NCBI GenBank assembly: GCA_947178575.1
Contig: CAMWYX010000009.1
Location: forward strand, 1-64,000
Reading direction: 5' to 3'
Length of the DNA stretch: 64,000 nucleotides
Source: an uncultured Ruminococcus sp.
Lineage (GTDB): Bacteria; Bacillota; Clostridia; Oscillospirales; Ruminococcaceae
Every line of letters begins with the position of its first letter. The first letter of the stretch is position 1. The translations under genes were made by a program, and so were the position numbers. The notes beneath the pieces are model-generated. The model was not told where the DNA came from. It saw only the letters and a list, made by a program, of their open reading frames with translations, and searched no databases. This document shows, one piece after another, positions 24,722 through 34,816 of this stretch.

Positions 24722-24750
24722 TTGACAAAAAAATGAAAAAGTGATATAAT
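24722..24750 (+). promoter_or_regulatory. Sigma-A promoter for tRNA-Ala
   Basis: TTGACA (24722-24727), 17-bp spacer ending TGA, TATAAT (24745-24750). The predicted start is only a few bases before the mature 5' end at 24760. Confidence 0.92.
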
Positions 24751-24759
24751 ATTGTTGAT

Positions 24760-24835
24760 GGGGCATTAGCGCAGTTGGGAGCGCATCACACTGGCAGTGT
24801 GGGGGTCAGGGGTTCGAATCCCCTATGCTCCACCA
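24760..24835 (+). tRNA. tRNA-Ala (anticodon GGC)
   Basis: 76 nt including an encoded CCA. The acceptor stem GGGGCAT/ATGCTCC has the G3-U70 pair that marks alanine tRNAs. The D arm is GCGC/GCGC, the anticodon loop CTGGCAG gives GGC (codon GCC), and the T arm GGGG-TTCGAAT-CCCC is canonical. It forms a single-gene unit. Confidence 0.97.
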
Positions 24836-24837
24836 TC

Positions 24838-24861
24838 GTCCCGTATATCGGGACTTTTTTT
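24838..24861 (+). terminator. Intrinsic terminator of tRNA-Ala
   Basis: GTCCCG (24838-24843) and CGGGAC (24849-24854) over TATAT, then T7, three bases after the CCA. Confidence 0.95.
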
Positions 24862-25007: not shown

Positions 25008-25036
25008 TTGACAAAAACAGATTTTCATGTTAAAAT
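25008..25036 (+). promoter_or_regulatory. Sigma-A promoter of the polyamine operon
   Basis: TTGACA (25008-25013), 17-bp spacer ending TGT, TAAAAT (25031-25036). The start near 25043 gives a leader of about 305 nt before speD. Confidence 0.82.
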
Positions 25037-25042
25037 AGGGTG

Positions 25043-25347
25043 TATTGCAAAGAATATTTCTGAGCATTATTTTGACCACTCTTTTTCAGATTCGGATTTT
25101 ATCCGGTTCTGCGGAGTTAGTGCCATACGGACAGCCGGTCAAATGCCGATTTCCGATACGTCGGACGGCAACTTCTGTTGCCTTATTGAAATTTTTTTAT
25201 AAGTTCAGTTCAGCTTGTGAAAGGTCAATAAGAGTAGTATAAAGAGGTATTTTGCTCATGATATAACTCTGATACCGGTGAAATACTGCATGATATGCAC
25301 ACGTACAGGCTGATTAAGTCTGTACGTTTTTTGTTTTGAGGTGTATT
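25043..25347 (+). promoter_or_regulatory. Structured 5' leader of the polyamine operon, candidate attenuator or riboswitch
   Basis: About 305 nt without a usable long ORF between a good promoter and speD. From 25090 it has a series of GC-rich pairings: CGGAT/ATCCG, CCGG...CTG with CAG...CCGG, TGCCG...CGGCA enclosing CCGA/TCGG, and GGCAAC/GTTGCC (25168-25183), which shares bases with the previous one so the two exclude each other. A second section (25244-25300) has competing GGTAT/ATACC and GTATTT/AAATAC pairings. It ends in an intrinsic terminator whose T run touches the speD ribosome-binding site. This layout is characteristic of ligand-controlled termination. I could not match it to a known SAM or other riboswitch class. 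Confidence 0.6.
25301..25332 (+). terminator. Intrinsic terminator inside the speD leader
   Basis: ACGTACAGGCT (25301-25311) pairs with AGTCTGTACGT (25317-25327), one G-U, loop GATTA, then T6. It lies 15 bases before the speD ATG, so it can only serve as a conditional terminator of the operon. Confidence 0.9.
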
Positions 25348-26130
25348 ATGGAAAATAAACTTAAACTTTATGGTTTTAACAATCTTACTAAATCCCTGAG
25401 TTTCAATATATATGATGTCTGCTATGCCAGAACCCCGAAAGCTCAGATTGATTATATTGCATATGTTGATGAGGTTTATAATTCTGAAAGAATAACGGCT
25501 ATCATGACACATCTTACCGAAATGATAGGCGCACAGGTTCTCAGTGTTTCACGTCAGGATTATGACCCGCAGGGAGCGTCGGCAACTTTTCTTATTGCCG
25601 ATGATACCATGATACCGGCAGGCGGAAGCGAAACTGTTGCTCATCTTGATAAAAGCCATGTCACGGTTCATACATATCCGGAATATCACCCCGATACAAA
25701 TATCGCTACTTTTCGGGTTGATATTGATGTTGCAACCTGCGGAAAGATTACTCCGCTTACTGCTCTCGATTTTCTTATCGGAAGTTTCGACAGCGATATT
25801 ATAACTATGGATTACCGTGTGCGAGGATTTACACGGAATCTCAGCGGTGAAAAAATCTTCATCGACCATAATATAACATCAATTCAGGATTATATCGATT
25901 CTGCCACACTTGATAAATATGATGCTCTTGATATAAATGTATATCAGGCGAATATGTTCCATACAAAAATGCTTATCAAGGAAATTGAACTTCAGAATTA
26001 TCTTTTTAATACAGATGTTCACGAGCTTTCACCAAGAAGCCGGCTCGATATAAGCAGTGCGCTGAGGCGTGAAATGATTGAAATTTTCAGCGGAAGGAAT
26101 GTTTACGGAAATGGCTCTATCACAGGTTAA
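25348..26130 (+). CDS. speD: S-adenosylmethionine decarboxylase, E. coli type
   Basis: 260 residues from ATG 25348 with GAGGTG upstream; an in-frame TTG at 25336 lies in the terminator tail. The proenzyme cleaves itself to make a pyruvoyl group; the site is [11 protein letters not shown] with Ser103 becoming the pyruvoyl residue. The length matches the long proteobacterial class (about 264) rather than the short Bacillus/Thermotoga class. The product, decarboxylated AdoMet, is the aminopropyl donor for SpeE three genes on. It overlaps speA by 20 bases, suggesting coupled translation. Confidence 0.95.
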
Positions 26131-27556
26131 TGCCCCGATTTACGAGGCTTTAAGAAAATTCAGGCGTATGCGTGTAGTCCCTTTCGATGTTCCGGGACAT
26201 AAGAGGGGACGGGGAAATATGGAACTTACAGAATTTCTCGGCGAAGACTGCATGAATGTCGATGTTAATTCAATGAAACCTCTGGACAACCTTTGTCACC
26301 CTGTTTCGGTGATAAAATCTGCAGAAATGCTCGCAGCAGAAGCATTCGGAGCAGAAAATGCGTTTTTTATGGTAGGCGGTACAACTTCCGCCGTTCAGAG
26401 CATGATTATGTACGCCTGCAAAAGCGGAGACAGAATAATAATGCCCCGAAATGTCCATAGAAGTGCAATAAATGCTCTTATTCTCACCGGAGCTGTTCCG
26501 GTGTACGTCAATCCCGATGTCAACAGTCAGCTCGGAATTGCTCTCGGTATGTCCGTGGAACAGGTAGAACAGGCGATTCGTGAAAATCCGCAGGCTAAAG
26601 CCGTGATGGTGAATAATCCGACATATTATGGCATATGTTCAGACCTTAAAAAAATTGTTGAGATTGCTCATGCTTATAATATGCTTGTTCTTGTTGATGA
26701 GGCTCACGGAACGCATTTTTATTTCGGCGAGGATTTCCCCATAACCGCAATGGAGGCAGGTGCTGATATTTCTTCCGTAAGTATGCACAAATCCGGCGGA
26801 AGTCTCACACAGAGTTCATTTCTGCTTATGGGTAAAAATATCAACAGTGATTATATGCGTCAGGTTGTTAATCTTACGCAGACCACAAGTGCGTCATATC
26901 TGCTGTTGTCAAGTCTTGACATATCACGGAAAAGGCTTGCCCTCAGCGGTCGGGAGATATTCGCACATACTGTTGAAATGGCTGAATATGCCCGCTCGGA
27001 AATAAATTCAATCGGCGGTTACTATGCGTATTCAAAGGAATTAATCAACGGCGACAGTATCTACGATTTTGATGTGTCAAAACTCAGTGTCTACACTCTT
27101 CCGATAGGTCTTGCCGGAATAGAAGTGTATGACCTGCTCCGTGATGAATATGATATTCAGATTGAATTCGGGGATTTGGGAAATATTCTGGCGTATCTTT
27201 CGGTCGGCGACAGAAAGCGTGATATTGAACGCTTAATCAGTGCAATGGCTGAAATAAAACGAAGATTCGGAAAATCCGGTGCGGATATGCTTACACAGGA
27301 ATATATTTCCCCGATAGTCGCAGAAACTCCTCGGCGTGCCTTTTATGCGGATAAAATTTCACTTCCGCTTGATGAATCGGTCGGCAGAGTATGCACGGAA
27401 TTTGTTATGTGCTATCCGCCAGGGATTCCGATTCTTGCCCCTGGTGAACTGATTACGCAGGATATAGTCAGCTATATCAGGTACGCCAAGGAAAAGGGCT
27501 GTCAGATGACCGGCACGGAGGATATTAATATAGAACGTCTGAATGTTCTGATATGA
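26111..27556 (+). CDS. speA: Arginine (or Lys/Orn) decarboxylase, PLP fold type I, short form
   Basis: 481 residues from ATG 26111; two upstream in-frame ATGs sit too close to their purine tracts. [11 protein letters not shown] near the start is the family signature, VDEAHGTHF supplies the PLP-pairing Asp, and the Schiff-base Lys is in [13 protein letters not shown]. The size fits the Bacillus SpeA/YaaO group, not the large inducible decarboxylases. Arginine is the likely substrate because an agmatinase-family gene lies in the same operon, giving agmatine. Lysine or ornithine cannot be excluded by eye. Confidence 0.9.
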
Positions 27557-27570
27557 AAGGATATGATACA

Positions 27571-28353
27571 ATGCGACAGTATATTATAGATGCTTTTACC
27601 GATAAAATTTTTTCAGGAAATCCGGCTGCTGTATGTATAACAGAAAATTTTCCGTCAGATGATTTAATGGTAAATATTGCAAAAGAAAATAATTTATCCG
27701 AAACCGCATTTGTTCAGAAAACAGAACACGGCTATAATCTCCGGTGGTTCACACCGGCAGGAGAAATAAATTTCTGTGGTCATGCTACTCTTGCCTCGGC
27801 TTTTGCGGTATCTGAATTTATTGACAAGGGTATCAATGAAATCCTGTTTCATACACAATCGGGCGATTTTCCCGTTAAAATTAAACATAAGGAAATTGAA
27901 ATGAATCTTCCGGCATATTCTTTCAGTGAAATTCCTGTTACTGATGAAATGCAGGAAGCTATAGGTGTTAAACCTGTTCAGGCTTTTATAAAGAGGGATA
28001 TGATGCTTGTACTGGAAAATGAAGAACAGGTCAGAAATCTTAATCCCGATTCTGATAAAATAAAATTACTTGACGGATTATGCCTGTGTGTTACTGCTCA
28101 GGGGAAAAATTATGATTGTGTTTCAAGAGTTTTTGCCCCTAAAATAAGTATAAACGAAGACCCCGTAACCGGTTCGTCACACTGCATGATTATTCCTTAC
28201 TGGGCTGAAAAGCTGGGGAAAAACAATATAAATGCTTATCAGGCTTCGGAACGTGGCGGTGAAATATACGGTTGTTTACAAGGCGACAGAGTAATTATTT
28301 CGGGTAAGGCTGTACTTTTCGGAACGGCTGATATTATGGTTGATATGATATAG
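27571..28353 (+). CDS. PhzF-family isomerase/epimerase-like protein
   Basis: 260 residues from ATG 27571, preceded by AAAGGA; ATG 27553 overlaps speA but lacks a site. IIDAFTDKIFSGNPAAVC at the N-terminus, NLSETAFV with the catalytic-type Glu, FTPAGEINFCGHATLA and NEDPVTGSSH are PhzF hallmarks. Known members isomerise small metabolites; this one's substrate is unknown. Its codon choice looks more AT-rich (more TTA leucine) than the surrounding spe genes, so it may have joined the operon later. Confidence 0.85.
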   Translation: MRQYIIDAFTDKIFSGNPAAVCITENFPSDDLMVNIAKENNLSETAFVQKTEHGYNLRWFTPAGEINFCGHATLASAFAVSEFIDKGINEILFHTQSGDFPVKIKHKEIEMNLPAYSFSEIPVTDEMQEAIGVKPVQAFIKRDMMLVLENEEQVRNLNPDSDKIKLLDGLCLCVTAQGKNYDCVSRVFAPKISINEDPVTGSSHCMIIPYWAEKLGKNNINAYQASERGGEIYGCLQGDRVIISGKAVLFGTADIMVDMI

Positions 28354-28363
28354 GGGGATTTTT

Positions 28364-29224
28364 ATGGAATTGTGGTTTACAGAACGTCATACACCGAACG
28401 TTAAATTTTCCATAAAGGTTGACCGTCAGCTTTACACGGGAAAGAGCGAATTTCAGCGGATTGATGTTTTTGAATCAAAGGAGTTCGGCAGGTTTCTGAC
28501 GCTTGACGGATATATGATGCTTACCGAAAAGGACGAATTTATTTATCATGAGATGATAACACACGTTCCGATGGCGGTTCACCCGAATCCGAAAAATATC
28601 CTTGTGATAGGAGCAGGGGACGGCGGTGTTGTCCGTGAACTTACAAAATATTCTGATATTGAGAGTATCGACCTTGTGGAAATAGATGAGCTTGTCGTCG
28701 AGGTCAGCAGAAAGTTTCTTCCGTCAACAGCGTGCCGTCTTGATGATAAGCGTGTGCACATATATTATGAAGACGGCGTGAAATTTATACGCCGGTGCGA
28801 AGATAAATATGATGTGATTATTGTGGATTCAACAGACCCTTTCGGACCGGGGGAAGGCTTGTTCACAAAAGAATTTTACGGAAGTTGCAACAAGGCTCTG
28901 CACGATGACGGAATCATGGTTAATCAACATGAAAGCCCGTTCTATTCCGAAGATGCGGCGGCTATGCAGAGGTCGCACAAGCGGATTTTTGAGAGTTTCC
29001 CGATAAGCCGTGTATATCAGGCACATATTCCGACATATCCGTCGGGACACTGGCTTTTCGGGTTCGCTTCAAAAAAATATCACCCCGTCCGTGACCTTGA
29101 CTCTGTAAAATGGAATATGCACGGAATAAAAACAGGATATTATAATACAAAACTTCACGCCGGAGCTTTCGCACTTCCGTCCTATGTTGAGGAAATGCTC
29201 CGTGAAGTGGAAAAAAGGAGCTGA
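28364..29224 (+). CDS. speE: Spermidine synthase / aminopropyltransferase
   Basis: 286 residues, AGGGGG upstream. LVIGAGDGGVVREL is the nucleotide-binding loop and IIVDSTDPFGPGEGLF holds the catalytic Asp; YHEMITHVPM and the substrate-side YPSGHW are conserved. It transfers the aminopropyl group from decarboxylated AdoMet to putrescine. Because it lies between the arginine decarboxylase and an agmatinase-family gene, it might instead act on agmatine, with the next enzyme releasing spermidine, as in Thermus. That choice is open. Confidence 0.93.
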   Translation: MELWFTERHTPNVKFSIKVDRQLYTGKSEFQRIDVFESKEFGRFLTLDGYMMLTEKDEFIYHEMITHVPMAVHPNPKNILVIGAGDGGVVRELTKYSDIESIDLVEIDELVVEVSRKFLPSTACRLDDKRVHIYYEDGVKFIRRCEDKYDVIIVDSTDPFGPGEGLFTKEFYGSCNKALHDDGIMVNQHESPFYSEDAAAMQRSHKRIFESFPISRVYQAHIPTYPSGHWLFGFASKKYHPVRDLDSVKWNMHGIKTGYYNTKLHAGAFALPSYVEEMLREVEKRS

Positions 29225-29231
29225 CAGTTAT

Positions 29232-30083
29232 ATGCTTGAAAAAAATATTCAGACTTTTATTGCCTGTGATTCGGAATACGATGAATCAAAAATTGTACTT
29301 TTCGGAGCAGGATTCGACAGCACAACGAGTTTCCGACCCGGAACAAGGTTCGCTCCGTCAGCAATCCGTTCCGAAAGTTTCGGAATCGAGACCTACAGCC
29401 CTTATCAGGATAAGGATATGACGGATTACAGCTATTTTGACAGCGGAGACCTTGAACTTCCCTTCGGAAGTGTCAGACGTGCTTTGTCGGATATTGCAAT
29501 GCGTTCAGATATAATTCTGAAAGACGGAAAAATTCCGTTTATGATAGGAGGAGAACATCTTGTTACTTTCGGCTCGGTCATGGCGGTGAACGATATGTAT
29601 AAGGATTTGCATATTATTCATTTTGATGCTCATGCCGATTTGCGTGAAGAGTATCTGGGTCAGCCGTTGTCCCATGCGTGCGTAATCAGAAGATGTCACG
29701 AAATTATCGGCAATGGTCGTATATTCCAGTTCGGTATCAGAAGCGGAGAACGTGAGGAATTTCGGTTCGCCGGACATCATACGGAACTGCATAAGTTCGG
29801 ATTCGGCGGACTTGCGGAAACAGTCGAAAAACTCAGAGGAAAGAATGTTTATTTCACCCTTGATTTGGACGTTCTTGACCCGTCGGTGTTCTGCGGTACT
29901 GGAACACCGGAGGCGGAGGGCGTGAGCTTTAAGGAGCTCCGTGAAGCTGTTACGCTTGTTTGCAGTGAACTGAATATAGTCGGCTGTGATGTCAACGAAT
30001 TAAGTCCGCATTACGACCCGTCAGGAGCGTCAACCGCTGTGGCGTGCAAGATTATCAGGGAAATGCTCCTTGCTTTATCATGA
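29232..30083 (+). CDS. speB: Agmatinase (ureohydrolase family)
   Basis: 283 residues from ATG 29232, with AGGAG in the end of speE. GGEHLVTFG, HFDAHADLR and TLDLDVLDPS are the three manganese-binding motifs of arginase/agmatinase enzymes, and VGCDVNELSPHYD is typical of agmatinases. It hydrolyses agmatine (or aminopropylagmatine) to putrescine (or spermidine) plus urea. Same operon as speA and speE. Confidence 0.92.
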   Translation: MLEKNIQTFIACDSEYDESKIVLFGAGFDSTTSFRPGTRFAPSAIRSESFGIETYSPYQDKDMTDYSYFDSGDLELPFGSVRRALSDIAMRSDIILKDGKIPFMIGGEHLVTFGSVMAVNDMYKDLHIIHFDAHADLREEYLGQPLSHACVIRRCHEIIGNGRIFQFGIRSGEREEFRFAGHHTELHKFGFGGLAETVEKLRGKNVYFTLDLDVLDPSVFCGTGTPEAEGVSFKELREAVTLVCSELNIVGCDVNELSPHYDPSGASTAVACKIIREMLLALS

Positions 30084-31873: not shown

Positions 31874-33076
31874 ATGGGAAAATGTATGATTATCGGCTGT
31901 GGAGGAGTTGCCTCCGTGGCTATTCACAAATGCTGTCAGAACAGCGATGTATTTGAAGGAATTATGATTGCAAGCCGTACAAAATCAAAGTGCGATGCTC
32001 TCAGGGAAAAATTACAGCCCACAACTAAAACCATAATCGAAACAGCTCAGGTCAATGCGGACAATGTTGACGAACTGATTTCTTTAATCAACAGCTATAA
32101 GCCCGATGTTGTCCTTAATCTTGCACTTCCGTATCAGGATTTGACAATCATGGACGCTTGTCTTGCAACTAAAACGCACTATGTCGATACCGCCAATTAT
32201 GAGCCTCTTGATACTGCAAAGTTTGAATATAAATGGCAGTGGGCTTACCGTGAAAAATTCGAGCAGGCAGGAATCACCGCACTTCTCGGAAGCGGATTTG
32301 ACCCCGGCGTAACAGGCGTATTTTCGGCGTATGCCATGAAGCACGAATTTGATGAAATCAATTATATTGATATTCTCGACTGCAACGGCGGAGACCACGG
32401 CTATCCGTTTGCAACAAATTTCAATCCGGAAATAAATATCCGTGAAGTTTCCGCAAAGGGAAGCTATATCGAAGACGGAAAATGGATTGAAACAGAACCG
32501 ATGGAAATAAAGCGTGTGTATAATTTCAAGGGTGTGGGCGAAAAAGATATGTATCTTCTTCATCACGAGGAACTGGAATCGCTTGCACTCAATATCAAGG
32601 GAATAAAGCGTATCAGATTTTTTATGACTTTCGGACAGAGCTATCTCACACATCTTAAATGCCTTGAAAATGTGGGAATGACTTCAATCGAGCCGATTGT
32701 TTATGAGGGAAAGGAAATTGTTCCGCTCCAGTTCCTGAGGGCTGTACTTCCCGACCCTGCTTCACTTGGTGCGAGAACCGTCGGCAAGACGAATATCGGC
32801 TGTATTTTCCGTGGCAAAAAGGACGGAAAAGACAAAACTTATTATCTGTATAACATATGCGACCATCAGGAATGCTATAAAGAAGTAGGTTCGCAGGCGG
32901 TTTCATATACAACGGGAGTTCCGGCGATGATTGGTGCAATGATGATTATGACCGGAAAGTGGAACAAAGCTGGCGTTTATAATATTGAGGAGTTCGACCC
33001 CGACCCGTTCATGGAAGCCCTCAACAAGTGGGGACTTCCTTGGGAAGAAGATTTCAGTCCGGTTCTTGTTGACTGA
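31874..33076 (+). CDS. Carboxynorspermidine/carboxyspermidine synthase (saccharopine dehydrogenase-like)
   Basis: 400 residues, AAAAGGAG upstream. The N-terminal MIIGCGGVASVAIHKC is the NADPH-binding fold; HYVDTANYEP, GFDPGVTGVFSAY and CNGGDHGYPFATNFNPEINIREV are characteristic of the CASDH group. It condenses an aspartate semialdehyde-diamine imine and reduces it to carboxyspermidine (from putrescine) or carboxynorspermidine (from diaminopropane). The decarboxylase partner lies two genes on. No diaminopropane-forming enzyme is visible here, so putrescine is the likelier substrate. Confidence 0.93.
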   Translation: MGKCMIIGCGGVASVAIHKCCQNSDVFEGIMIASRTKSKCDALREKLQPTTKTIIETAQVNADNVDELISLINSYKPDVVLNLALPYQDLTIMDACLATKTHYVDTANYEPLDTAKFEYKWQWAYREKFEQAGITALLGSGFDPGVTGVFSAYAMKHEFDEINYIDILDCNGGDHGYPFATNFNPEINIREVSAKGSYIEDGKWIETEPMEIKRVYNFKGVGEKDMYLLHHEELESLALNIKGIKRIRFFMTFGQSYLTHLKCLENVGMTSIEPIVYEGKEIVPLQFLRAVLPDPASLGARTVGKTNIGCIFRGKKDGKDKTYYLYNICDHQECYKEVGSQAVSYTTGVPAMIGAMMIMTGKWNKAGVYNIEEFDPDPFMEALNKWGLPWEEDFSPVLVD

Positions 33077-33114: not shown

Positions 33115-33696
33115 ATGCAGATTAAATTCAATAAAATCGTGAGACCTGTAGCGGTAAAGCCGGAGGATTCAAGACCGGCAAGACAGGAAACTGTAAATCA
33201 GGAAACCGAAATTCCGGCACAAAATCCGGAGCAGGAAATTAAATCGTCACCAGCGGAACAGATTGAATCAATTGAATCATTCCTTGCGGAGTTTACAAAG
33301 CAGACCGATACTATGCCGGAGGTTGAAATCCCGAAAACCGAAACAGAAGATTTTAAACCCGCCGTACAGCCGGAAGATACTGTTATTCCGGAAACGGTTT
33401 CATCAAATCCGCCGGTTAATGCCGTGACTGTGTCGTCGGGTGTTCCGGCTATCGAGGAAACGCTGAAAAAATTTATCGGCAAGAGTATCCGTGTATATAC
33501 CGCCGACCATGAAAACGTTATCGGACGGCTTGAATCTATCAAGGACGGCTGGATAAAGATTTGTAATGCACGCTCGGCAGGAGGCGGATATTACTGCGAC
33601 GAGGATATAATAAATATCAGAAATATCGTCAGATTCCGTTTTATAAGAAACATCACAAAGAGCGATTATGTGGAGTTCACAAATGCCGAAAACTGA
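33115..33696 (+). CDS. Unrecognised protein with a Pro/Glu-rich linker and a small C-terminal beta domain
   Basis: 193 residues behind GAGGAG. Residues ~18-115 are low-complexity, rich in Pro, Glu, Thr and Ser, and probably disordered. Residues ~118-185 look like a compact beta-barrel (GKSIRVYTADHENVIGRL, then GWIKI and a strand near IRNIVRFRFI), somewhat like Sm/SH3-type folds. It lies between the two carboxynorspermidine genes and overlaps the second by 14 bases, so its translation is likely coupled to the decarboxylase. No function is claimed. Confidence 0.7.
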   Translation: MQIKFNKIVRPVAVKPEDSRPARQETVNQETEIPAQNPEQEIKSSPAEQIESIESFLAEFTKQTDTMPEVEIPKTETEDFKPAVQPEDTVIPETVSSNPPVNAVTVSSGVPAIEETLKKFIGKSIRVYTADHENVIGRLESIKDGWIKICNARSAGGGYYCDEDIINIRNIVRFRFIRNITKSDYVEFTNAEN

Positions 33697-34816
33697 TTTG
33701 AATAACGTTCCTACACCGTGCTATATAATCGACGAGGGAAGACTTATACAAAATCTTGAAATACTCCACGGAGTTGAGGAACGCACCGGAGCTAAAATAC
33801 TTCTTGCTCAGAAAGCTTTTTCATGTTTTCACTTGTATCCGCTGATACGCCGTTATATTTCGGGAACTGCTTCGAGCGGACTTTATGAGGCACGTCTCGG
33901 ATTTGAGCAGATGGGCGGTGAAAATCACGTATTTTCTGCGGCATACCGTGAAAGCGAATTTGATGAAATTCTTTCGTACAGCAATCATATTATATTTAAT
34001 TCGTTTGGTCAGCTTGAGAAATATCGGGAAAAAACGCTTTCGGCAGGCAGAAAAATCGGTCTGCGGATAAATCCGGAATACTCTACTCAGTCGGGGCATG
34101 AAATATATGACCCTTGCTCTCCGGAATCACGCCTCGGAATAACAGACAGGAATTTCCGGCGTGATTGTCTCTCCGGCGTTACCGGAATACATTTTCATAC
34201 GCTTTGCGAGCAGAACTCCGACGACCTCGAAAGAACTCTGATTGCCGTTGAAGAAAAATTCGGCGATGTTCTTGAAAAAATGGAATGGATAAACTTCGGA
34301 GGCGGTCATCACATAACACGCAGTGATTACGATATACCTCGCCTTGAACGCTGTATAAAGCGTGTTCAGGATAAATATAATCTTGAAGTTTTCCTCGAAC
34401 CAGGAGAAGCTGTGGCACTCAATGCCGGATTTCTTGTTTCGGAGGTTCTGGACATAACGGAAAACGATATGCCGATTGCCATTCTCGATACATCAGCGTC
34501 ATGCCATATGCCCGATGTTCTGGAAATGCCGTACCGTCCGCCGGTTTCCGGAGCAGGTGAAAGGGGAGAGAAGCCGTATTCATACAGGCTCGGCTCGCAG
34601 ACCTGTCTCGCCGGAGACGTTATCGGGGAATATTCATTCGATTCACCGCTTTCAGCCGGAGATAAGCTGATTTTTGAGGATATGGCTATTTATTCCATGG
34701 TGAAGAACAATACGTTTAACGGTATGCCTCTTCCGGATATACTTCTTAAAAAAACAACCGGAGAACTTGAAGTTCTCCGGAAGTTCGGGTACAGCGATTT
34801 TAAATCAAGATTATGA
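33683..34816 (+). CDS. nspC: Carboxynorspermidine/carboxyspermidine decarboxylase
   Basis: 377 residues from ATG 33683, with GTGGAG seven bases upstream inside the previous gene. It is a PLP enzyme of the alanine racemase-like fold III: LLAQKAFSCF carries the PLP Lys, GIHFHTLCEQ and NFGGGHHITR bind cofactor phosphate, EPGEAVALNAG is conserved, and CHMPDVLEMPYRP lies near the active site. It removes CO2 from carboxyspermidine to give spermidine. It closes the polyamine operon; no strong terminator is seen before the next promoter. Confidence 0.94.
   Translation: MPKTDLNNVPTPCYIIDEGRLIQNLEILHGVEERTGAKILLAQKAFSCFHLYPLIRRYISGTASSGLYEARLGFEQMGGENHVFSAAYRESEFDEILSYSNHIIFNSFGQLEKYREKTLSAGRKIGLRINPEYSTQSGHEIYDPCSPESRLGITDRNFRRDCLSGVTGIHFHTLCEQNSDDLERTLIAVEEKFGDVLEKMEWINFGGGHHITRSDYDIPRLERCIKRVQDKYNLEVFLEPGEAVALNAGFLVSEVLDITENDMPIAILDTSASCHMPDVLEMPYRPPVSGAGERGEKPYSYRLGSQTCLAGDVIGEYSFDSPLSAGDKLIFEDMAIYSMVKNNTFNGMPLPDILLKKTTGELEVLRKFGYSDFKSRL

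Follow-up and report, generated by a model that had tools for sequence, protein, structure and literature searches.

Why would an intrinsic terminator stand immediately in front of the first gene of a polyamine operon? This question is raised by the 64,000-nt stretch of DNA from an uncultured Ruminococcus sp. analyzed here, which we refer to as the window. A preliminary description had placed a conditional terminator in the leader of this operon. We propose that the leader is a cis-acting OFF switch of operon transcription, most likely a spermidine riboswitch, and we put the probability of this reading at roughly 0.62.

The first gene of the operon, speD (25348-26130, + strand), encodes AdoMet decarboxylase and was identified by a match to TIGR03331 (386.8 bits, cut-off 255.8). 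It is followed on the same strand, according to Pfam matches, by genes for an Orn/Lys/Arg decarboxylase, a PhzF-like protein, a spermidine synthase and a member of the arginase/agmatinase family (26078-30083). A carboxynorspermidine synthase family protein is encoded at 31874-33076 (406 bits, under the curated cut-off of 800) and NspC at 33668-34816 (491 bits, cut-off 409), so that genes of both spermidine routes are present between 25348 and 34816. SpeD, carboxynorspermidine synthase and NspC make spermidine, the decarboxylase and agmatinase feed the pathway, and PotABCD imports spermidine. The PhzF-like gene lies within the operon, and genes for DUF1963 and DUF3592 proteins are found between the two spermidine-route groups.

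The consensus promoter reported at 25008 was recovered as a sigma-70 type sequence, TTGACA-17-TAAAAT, at 25008-25036 on the + strand, which matches 11 of 12 consensus positions and sets the leader start at about 25043. The terminator just before speD was likewise found where it had been described. This intrinsic terminator (25301-25333, + strand) consists of a stem of 11 pairs, five of them G-C, at 25301-25327, followed by a T run (the U run of the RNA), with about 15 nt left to the ATG at 25348. The leader as a whole (25043-25347) is predicted to fold with -91.8 kcal/mol, against -66.4 ± 5.0 kcal/mol for shuffled sequences (z -5.1; none of 200 shuffles as good). The earlier statement that it contains no long ORF is roughly correct, although two frames that begin with TTG, 72 and 65 codons long, run across it on the + strand. 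Directly upstream of the leader, at 24722-24854, a tRNA-Ala(ggc) gene (24760-24835) is accompanied by a 12/12 promoter of its own and by a terminator.

The preliminary description recognized no known RNA class in the leader. No Rfam riboswitch class matches it, but the part at 25073-25149 (+ strand) matches RF02440 (SpF59_sRNA, ldcC RNA) with 49.3 bits, above the cut-off of 37.2. RF02440 is a 54-position Rfam model for a Streptococcus small RNA without stated function, typed 'Gene; sRNA'. At curated cut-offs, the Rfam search returned only RF02440 and tRNAs from the whole window, and only RF02440, tRNAs and one unrelated TPP switch from 13 relatives; on the leader at E values up to 5, the additional matches were DdR17 and SSRC38 only, both far under cut-off. 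SAM riboswitch families gave no match in the window, in the leader (E up to 5) or in the 13 relatives, nor was there a covariance match in window, leader or these relatives to the T-box leader, whose model we take to be included in Rfam.

Using RF02440 as a query, we obtained matches in 45 of 99 related genomes. The 30 loci listed from this search comprise 29 with SpeD or a decarboxylase and one (L019) with a PotA-like start. Across them, conservation extends about 150 nt beyond the part matched by RF02440, through the helices P4, P5 and P7 described below and a block TGTGAAAcGGTCAATAAGAGTAGTAAAAG...TTGCTATATAGACTCTGA, after which the terminator follows. Judged by the relatives' sequences, the conserved RNA is thus about 200 nt long, and RF02440 is confined to its 5' part. 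A pattern scan of contigs (among the matches listed) and a 398-genome phylum sample, with RF02440 in 18 genomes, added the loci L031-L164, and both blocks, the core and the 3' block, occur in 136 of the 164 loci among the matches listed. Named sources of the listed loci include Paenibacillus, Alkalihalobacillus, Bacillus, Acetobacterium, Phascolarctobacterium, Blautia and Flavonifractor; others are many MAGs of Oscillospiraceae and a single Spirochaetes MAG (L103, 60.3 bits with the model R1 described below). The 28 loci without a joint match of core and 3' block were discarded as chance pattern matches, and the gene tally of the 136 loci given below excludes all of them. R1 recovers 11 of these 28 at E < 1e-6; the other 17, all from the pattern scan, are not recovered.

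From the 136 two-block loci, nine without clear borders or otherwise set aside were removed, leaving 127, of which 71 remained under 82% mutual identity. Omission of 15 of these, mostly for large insertions, gave the 56 copies of alignment A1, which was made with MAFFT and is not structure-fitted. A 200-position covariance model, R1, was built from A2, a set of 37 of the 56 copies that includes the window. Searched blind to genes in three genome samples, R1 found matches in 40 of 398 genomes (the class around genome G430), 52 of 197 (the window's order) and 24 of 388 (the phylum), 116 places in all. The distinct ones number 108, and the window is one of them. The 79 strongest places are the loci L165-L243, and the other 29 were retrieved separately. 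Among the 79, 47 have no identical 100-nt stretch in earlier loci, eight repeat another locus and one is the window itself. The window copy (25072-25269) scores 99.6 bits with an E value of 4.8e-22, as one of the training rows; it is a diverged copy, the best score being 212.6 bits.

The gene context of these RNAs is nearly uniform. The first gene downstream in the 136 two-block loci encodes SpeD in 59, an Orn/Lys/Arg decarboxylase in 30, PotA in 23 and carboxynorspermidine synthase in 18, with NspC often the next gene in the last group. The remaining loci are four without a callable ORF, one (L126) where a P-II gene precedes PotA, and one (L049) with a spurious block pairing, where R1 locates the RNA on the opposite strand. 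Among the R1 places, 105 of 108 have one of these four gene types shortly downstream on the same strand, namely all 79 of L165-L243 and, within about 700 nt, 26 of the remaining 29. Conserved structure ahead of orthologous genes, looked for in relatives, was therefore found before speD and before other polyamine genes, and, with three exceptions, the genes whose 5' leaders contain the RNA all belong to one pathway. In L244 (genome G845) an IS200-like transposase comes after an intact-looking RNA, and the 14.5 kb read contain none of the gene set, only weak PotA-like matches; in L266 (G889) a peptidase M28 gene stands behind the RNA, and again the set is missing from the 15 kb read, apart from one weak PotA-like match; and in L271 three other frames follow, with SpeD 2.1 kb away. 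L266 and L244 may each be read as a new target or, alternatively, as an orphaned leader. Of 103 non-redundant relatives, 78 have a promoter of at least 10/12 ahead of the RNA, against 5.6 expected from simple shuffles.

Some details of the import-type loci are worth recording. The P-II nitrogen regulator gene of L126 (1554-1952 of that locus) is situated between the RNA and potA. Three potA-type loci (L114, L124 and L130) have a protein of the same cluster after potA, and genes of the permease cluster come next in L124 and L130. The protein after potA in L124 (311 aa) has no Pfam or NCBIfam match.

We compared 53 proposed base pairs in 12 helices across the 56 copies of A1. They are formed in 90.9% of cases, against 30-43% when one partner is slid along the alignment, a control that leans towards the tested structure because the structure was read off the same alignment. 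Two-sided changes occur at 27 of the 53 pairs (shuffled mean 16.2), and the covariation score is 0.180 (shuffled 0.101); none of 500 shuffles reached either value. RNAalifold alone found P1, P2, P3, P5 and P10, and did not find P4, P6, P7, P8 or P9. Together with the R1 match, the A1 alignment and the pair counts point to a conserved structured RNA at 25071-25269 (+ strand), a candidate aptamer domain whose predicted fold is aptamer-like and bears two-sided changes. Helices P1-P11 are distinguished overall, and P6, P8 and P9 are missing from the window copy. Long inserts within the RNA occur in L008, L083 and L124, the one in L008 measuring about 150 nt between P6 and P7.

All helices of the window copy are on the + strand. 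P1 (25071-25077 with 25137-25143) varies between U-A, G-C and C-G at columns 23/92, and its two outermost pairs are broken in many relatives. P2 (25078-25081 with 25114-25117), which has a long extra tip in the window copy, shows two-sided changes at all four pairs among relatives. In the small hairpin P3 (25122-25123 with 25134-25135), columns 71/86 show four two-sided changes. The loop letters CGG (25128-25130) complement CCG at 25146-25148, so that P3 with this possible pseudoknot spans 25122-25148; since these letters are unvarying in 56 of 56 copies, we put the pseudoknot forward only as a proposal. P3 is inverted, GCC..GGC instead of GGC..GCC, in L193 and L194, which come from two genomes of genus g248. 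These two are diverged copies that stand before a decarboxylase gene and differ in the P10 region. An optional hairpin (25152-25156 with 25161-25165) has five of five pairs complementary, and close relatives and potA-type copies have a hairpin at the same place. P4 (25167-25172 with 25177-25182) shows two-sided changes at all six pairs.

In the 3' half of the RNA, P5, P7 and P10 are near-invariant in sequence. P5 pairs UUAUUGA (25183-25189) with UCAAUAA (25225-25231) and is paired in 98.2% of cells over the 56 copies. P7 pairs UAUAAG (25198-25203) with CUUGUG (25214-25219) in 96.7% of cells, and it is its 3' strand that would switch partners. P10 pairs GAGU (25232-25235) with ACUC (25266-25269) in 98.2% of cells, with a U-A pair replaced by C-G in two copies. 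By eye, two-sided changes in P5 and P10 are seen in L148 and L239. When 14 diverged R1 loci were compared with the RF02440 cut-off, seven reached it and seven fell short. A recognizable 5' core (at most three mismatches) is missing in 12 of the 79 R1 loci; five of these 12 reach RF02440, and the other seven (L236, L237 and L239-L243) have no RF02440 match while retaining the 3' block before speD or a decarboxylase gene. These seven suggest that the 3' part may be the true core of the RNA. In L241 and L242 a promoter-like sequence, noted by eye, stands immediately ahead of the 3' block.

Could such a leader act through translation of a short peptide? A TTG-started frame of at least eight codons, closed within the RNA, begins at the same column in 45 of 56 copies. 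This frame follows from the conserved letters of P5/P6, and by eye no Shine-Dalgarno sequence precedes it; the best ATG column is shared by only 23 of 56 copies, and the two-sided helix changes indicate RNA structure. With no start-codon frame convincingly conserved in the relatives, we rejected attenuation by a leader peptide, which we consider very improbable.

The structure itself could equally be read by a protein. PyrR and TRAP are proteins that control leader terminators, large conserved leader RNAs can be protein targets, and conservation alone would fit a polyamine-sensing regulatory protein that binds the leader and controls the terminator as well as it fits a ligand-binding RNA. Against this, the genes clustered downstream of the RNA in the loci read include no recurrent regulator, and the 32 invariant columns in the 56 copies of A1 would suit a binding pocket, so that we regard a protein regulator as improbable. 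We also considered a non-specific effect, in which polyamines or Mg2+, serving simply as counter-ions, would affect any large structured leader alike. Polyamines do have a general affinity for RNA, as one study states (PMC10853860), but such an effect would hardly need 200 conserved nucleotides with many invariant columns, and it is extremely unlikely to account for this leader.

We then asked which part of the RNA could communicate with the terminator. The preliminary description had named GC-rich, mutually exclusive arms, and the letters are indeed present in the window (TGCCG at 25144-25148 and CGGCA at 25166-25170; GGCAAC at 25167-25172 and GTTGCC at 25177-25182), but comparison supports other arms. 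We rejected the proposed switch between TGCCG/CGGCA and GGCAAC/GTTGCC, as UGCC/GGCA is not kept in every relative when A1 is inspected by eye. The relatives instead support a choice between the 3' strand of P7 and the 5' arm of the terminator.

The terminators were assessed in 162 of 224 loci, those that fit the motif rule and have a gene within 600 nt, a terminator being defined as a hairpin of -8 kcal/mol or better with a U run, located between RNA and gene. By this definition 160 of the 162 loci have one, against 29 of 162 shuffled regions, and the proportion is high before every gene type (SpeD 73 of 75, decarboxylase 22 of 22, carboxynorspermidine synthase 45 of 45, PotA 20 of 20). For 103 non-redundant loci of the 160, the 5' arm of the terminator was matched along the locus's own leader. 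Mean complementarity shows a single peak, with z -1.9 at the P9-3'/P7-3' strand and values of at least -0.5 elsewhere. The best 28-nt stretch for the arm is located at the 3' strand of P7 in 69 of the 103 loci and lies elsewhere in 34.

Pairing was stronger with a locus's own arm than with arms swapped between loci (-12.1 versus -10.8 kcal/mol; 0 of 5000 permutations as good, 103 loci). The own partner was the best of all in only three of the 103 loci and in the top tenth in 24; swapped arms also pair with the P7 strand because CUUGUG is universal. At the variable positions beside CUUGUG, the own arm makes 970 pairs; swapped arms make 798 ± 20, and at most 855 in 200 swaps. Within CUUGUG, each of the first four letters is paired with the own arm in 94-97 of the 103 loci (about 80-82 when swapped); pairing drops to 81 loci at the fifth letter and to 50 at the sixth.

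For the window, these comparisons lead to a proposed antiterminator of 10 bp between UCAGCUUGUG (25210-25219) and UACAGGCUGA (25304-25313), spanning 25210-25313 on the + strand. The strongest complement of the window's terminator arm within the leader is a 14-pair duplex that includes these 10 pairs, at -15.6 kcal/mol, the next best reaching -11.8 kcal/mol. The arm cut at the loop gives -8.9 kcal/mol, and its extension into the loop yields the 10 bp. P7 and the antiterminator would be mutually exclusive, as both need CUUGUG, the 3' strand of P7, and the predicted expression platform is in this sense exclusive with the conserved fold. Comparison among sequences, from which the conserved structure, the gene set, the terminator and the alternative pairing are established as predicted features, thus lends good support, through pairing, terminators and antiterminator, to a conditional terminator in a structured, conserved leader of the polyamine operon.

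Given these features, we hold it almost certain that the leader works in cis, through its structure, to switch transcription of the polyamine regulon, and very probable that it is a riboswitch in the strict sense. In the mechanism that we propose, the conserved RNA of about 200 nt, lacking P6, P8 and P9 in the window copy, would form first. When polyamine is plentiful, its binding would stabilize the fold containing P5 and P7, leaving the 5' arm of the terminator free to form its hairpin, which would end transcription ahead of speD. When polyamine is scarce, the 3' strand of P7 within UCAGCUUGUG would pair with UACAGGCUGA of the terminator arm and polymerase would read on. Equilibrium folding of the window leader, with the pseudoknot ignored, gives -89.5 kcal/mol for the terminated fold and -78.3 to -82.9 kcal/mol for the alternatives. 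As the terminated fold is already favored at equilibrium, the antiterminator would have to win during transcription. We infer direct binding, spermidine as the ligand and the direction of switching from this arrangement and from the genes controlled, and repression by an end product fits an OFF switch.

The identity of the ligand is constrained by genomes that lack parts of the pathway. The earlier proposal had named a polyamine, AdoMet, decarboxylated AdoMet or arginine; a polyamine remains well placed, with spermidine the simplest candidate, while AdoMet and decarboxylated AdoMet have become unlikely. In four potA-type genomes (G070, G986, G1010 and G1025, two of them 60% and 85% complete), searches for SpeD, spermidine synthase and carboxynorspermidine synthase gave no match, which would leave import as the only source of spermidine in them. 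In genus g248, two genomes encode carboxynorspermidine synthase and show no match to AdoMet decarboxylase. The lack of an AdoMet decarboxylase match in both groups makes decarboxylated AdoMet very unlikely as the common signal.

A cis-acting terminator riboswitch of the same kind could respond instead to putrescine, agmatine, cadaverine, arginine, AdoMet or decarboxylated AdoMet, an alternative that we consider unlikely but the most serious of those weighed here. The operon itself contains genes of the decarboxylase, arginase/agmatinase and AdoMet decarboxylase families, and all four potA-type genomes retain genes of the Orn/Lys/Arg decarboxylase family, which keeps diamines such as putrescine and cadaverine among the candidates. 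On the other side, the RNA stands before potA in genomes without matches to the spermidine-synthesis genes, and its position before carboxynorspermidine synthase, often with NspC next, fits an end product better than AdoMet, decarboxylated AdoMet or arginine. Spermidine, on which the controlled genes converge, is therefore the simplest common signal, with putrescine or another diamine as the alternative.

We compared the RNA with known or proposed regulators of polyamine genes. No description of it was found in the open-access papers searched, and the main texts of two RNA-motif screens make no mention of polyamine, spermidine or ldcC (PMC2864571, PMC6429828). The only polyamine riboswitch found in these papers is a SAM-I variant that precedes polyamine genes of Gram-positive bacteria; it has 13 examples, and spermidine leads to transcription termination. 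The same 2023 paper calls the evidence for earlier claimed polyamine riboswitches unconvincing (PMC10853860). The window RNA shares with this variant its place before polyamine genes of Gram-positives, but the variant has the four-stem SAM-I architecture as described there, whereas the window RNA has a different, larger fold and no SAM family match. A terminator-like structure also precedes the polyamine import genes potABCD of Haemophilus somnus and Pasteurella multocida, which are Gram-negative (PMC8744998). Other RNA elements ahead of polyamine-related genes are the potE motif, from Veillonella and environmental samples and poorly supported by covariation, and the odc1 motif of alpha-proteobacteria, an element with a uORF (both PMC8632094). 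The speF RNA motif is likewise a putative cis element before a polyamine gene for which a ligand was not found; it belongs to alpha-proteobacteria, with a doubtful report from C. difficile (PMC11477304), whereas the window reaches only the RF02440 and tRNA cut-offs.

On balance, we somewhat favor the view that the RNA represents a second polyamine riboswitch class, structurally unrelated to the SAM-I variant and far more widespread. Such a class would be about 200 nt long with ten or more helices and a possible loop pseudoknot, and would control speD, decarboxylase, carboxynorspermidine and potABCD operons across Bacillota and in one Spirochaetes MAG, with P5, P7 and P10 as the ligand-binding core and RF02440 as a variable 5' domain missing from some copies. 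The candidate is far commoner than the variant with its 13 examples, and it combines strong covariation, a very clean set of polyamine genes and a clear switch design. If the proposal is correct, many gut Clostridia, Paenibacillus and streptococci would rely chiefly on this RNA to sense polyamines. Polyamine sensing in Gram-positives would become directly testable, with many independent RNAs available for ligand screens.

The proposal also bears on the pneumococcal RNA F59, behind which, as the Rfam name suggests, an ldcC-type decarboxylase gene probably lies. In Rfam, RF02440 is a 54-nt 'sRNA'; the window RNA has its 5' part above the family cut-off with the same conserved letters, but here that part is the 5' domain of a cis leader of about 200 nt with terminator and antiterminator. 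A trans-acting small RNA is what the Rfam type implies, and F59/srn235 was listed as an sRNA in 2012 (PMC3395615) and again in 2025, at 869478-869804 (PMC12323649). This reading is highly unlikely for the RNA studied here, given that 105 of 108 R1 places lie upstream of a same-strand polyamine gene and that the terminator arm matches its own RNA. F59 itself is placed at 869510-869591 of TIGR4, on the + strand between SP0915 and SP0916 in the 2012 paper, as a terminated leader would be (PMC3395615). Read from its listed position, F59/srn235 is probably a terminated leader of this RNA class, and the pneumococcal 'virulence sRNA' would be recast accordingly if the proposed class is real. Insertion mutants of srn235/SN20 had a lung Tn-seq fitness of 0.05 and were strongly unfit, according to the same text, which suggests that this 'sRNA' acts in cis on the gene that follows it (PMC3395615).
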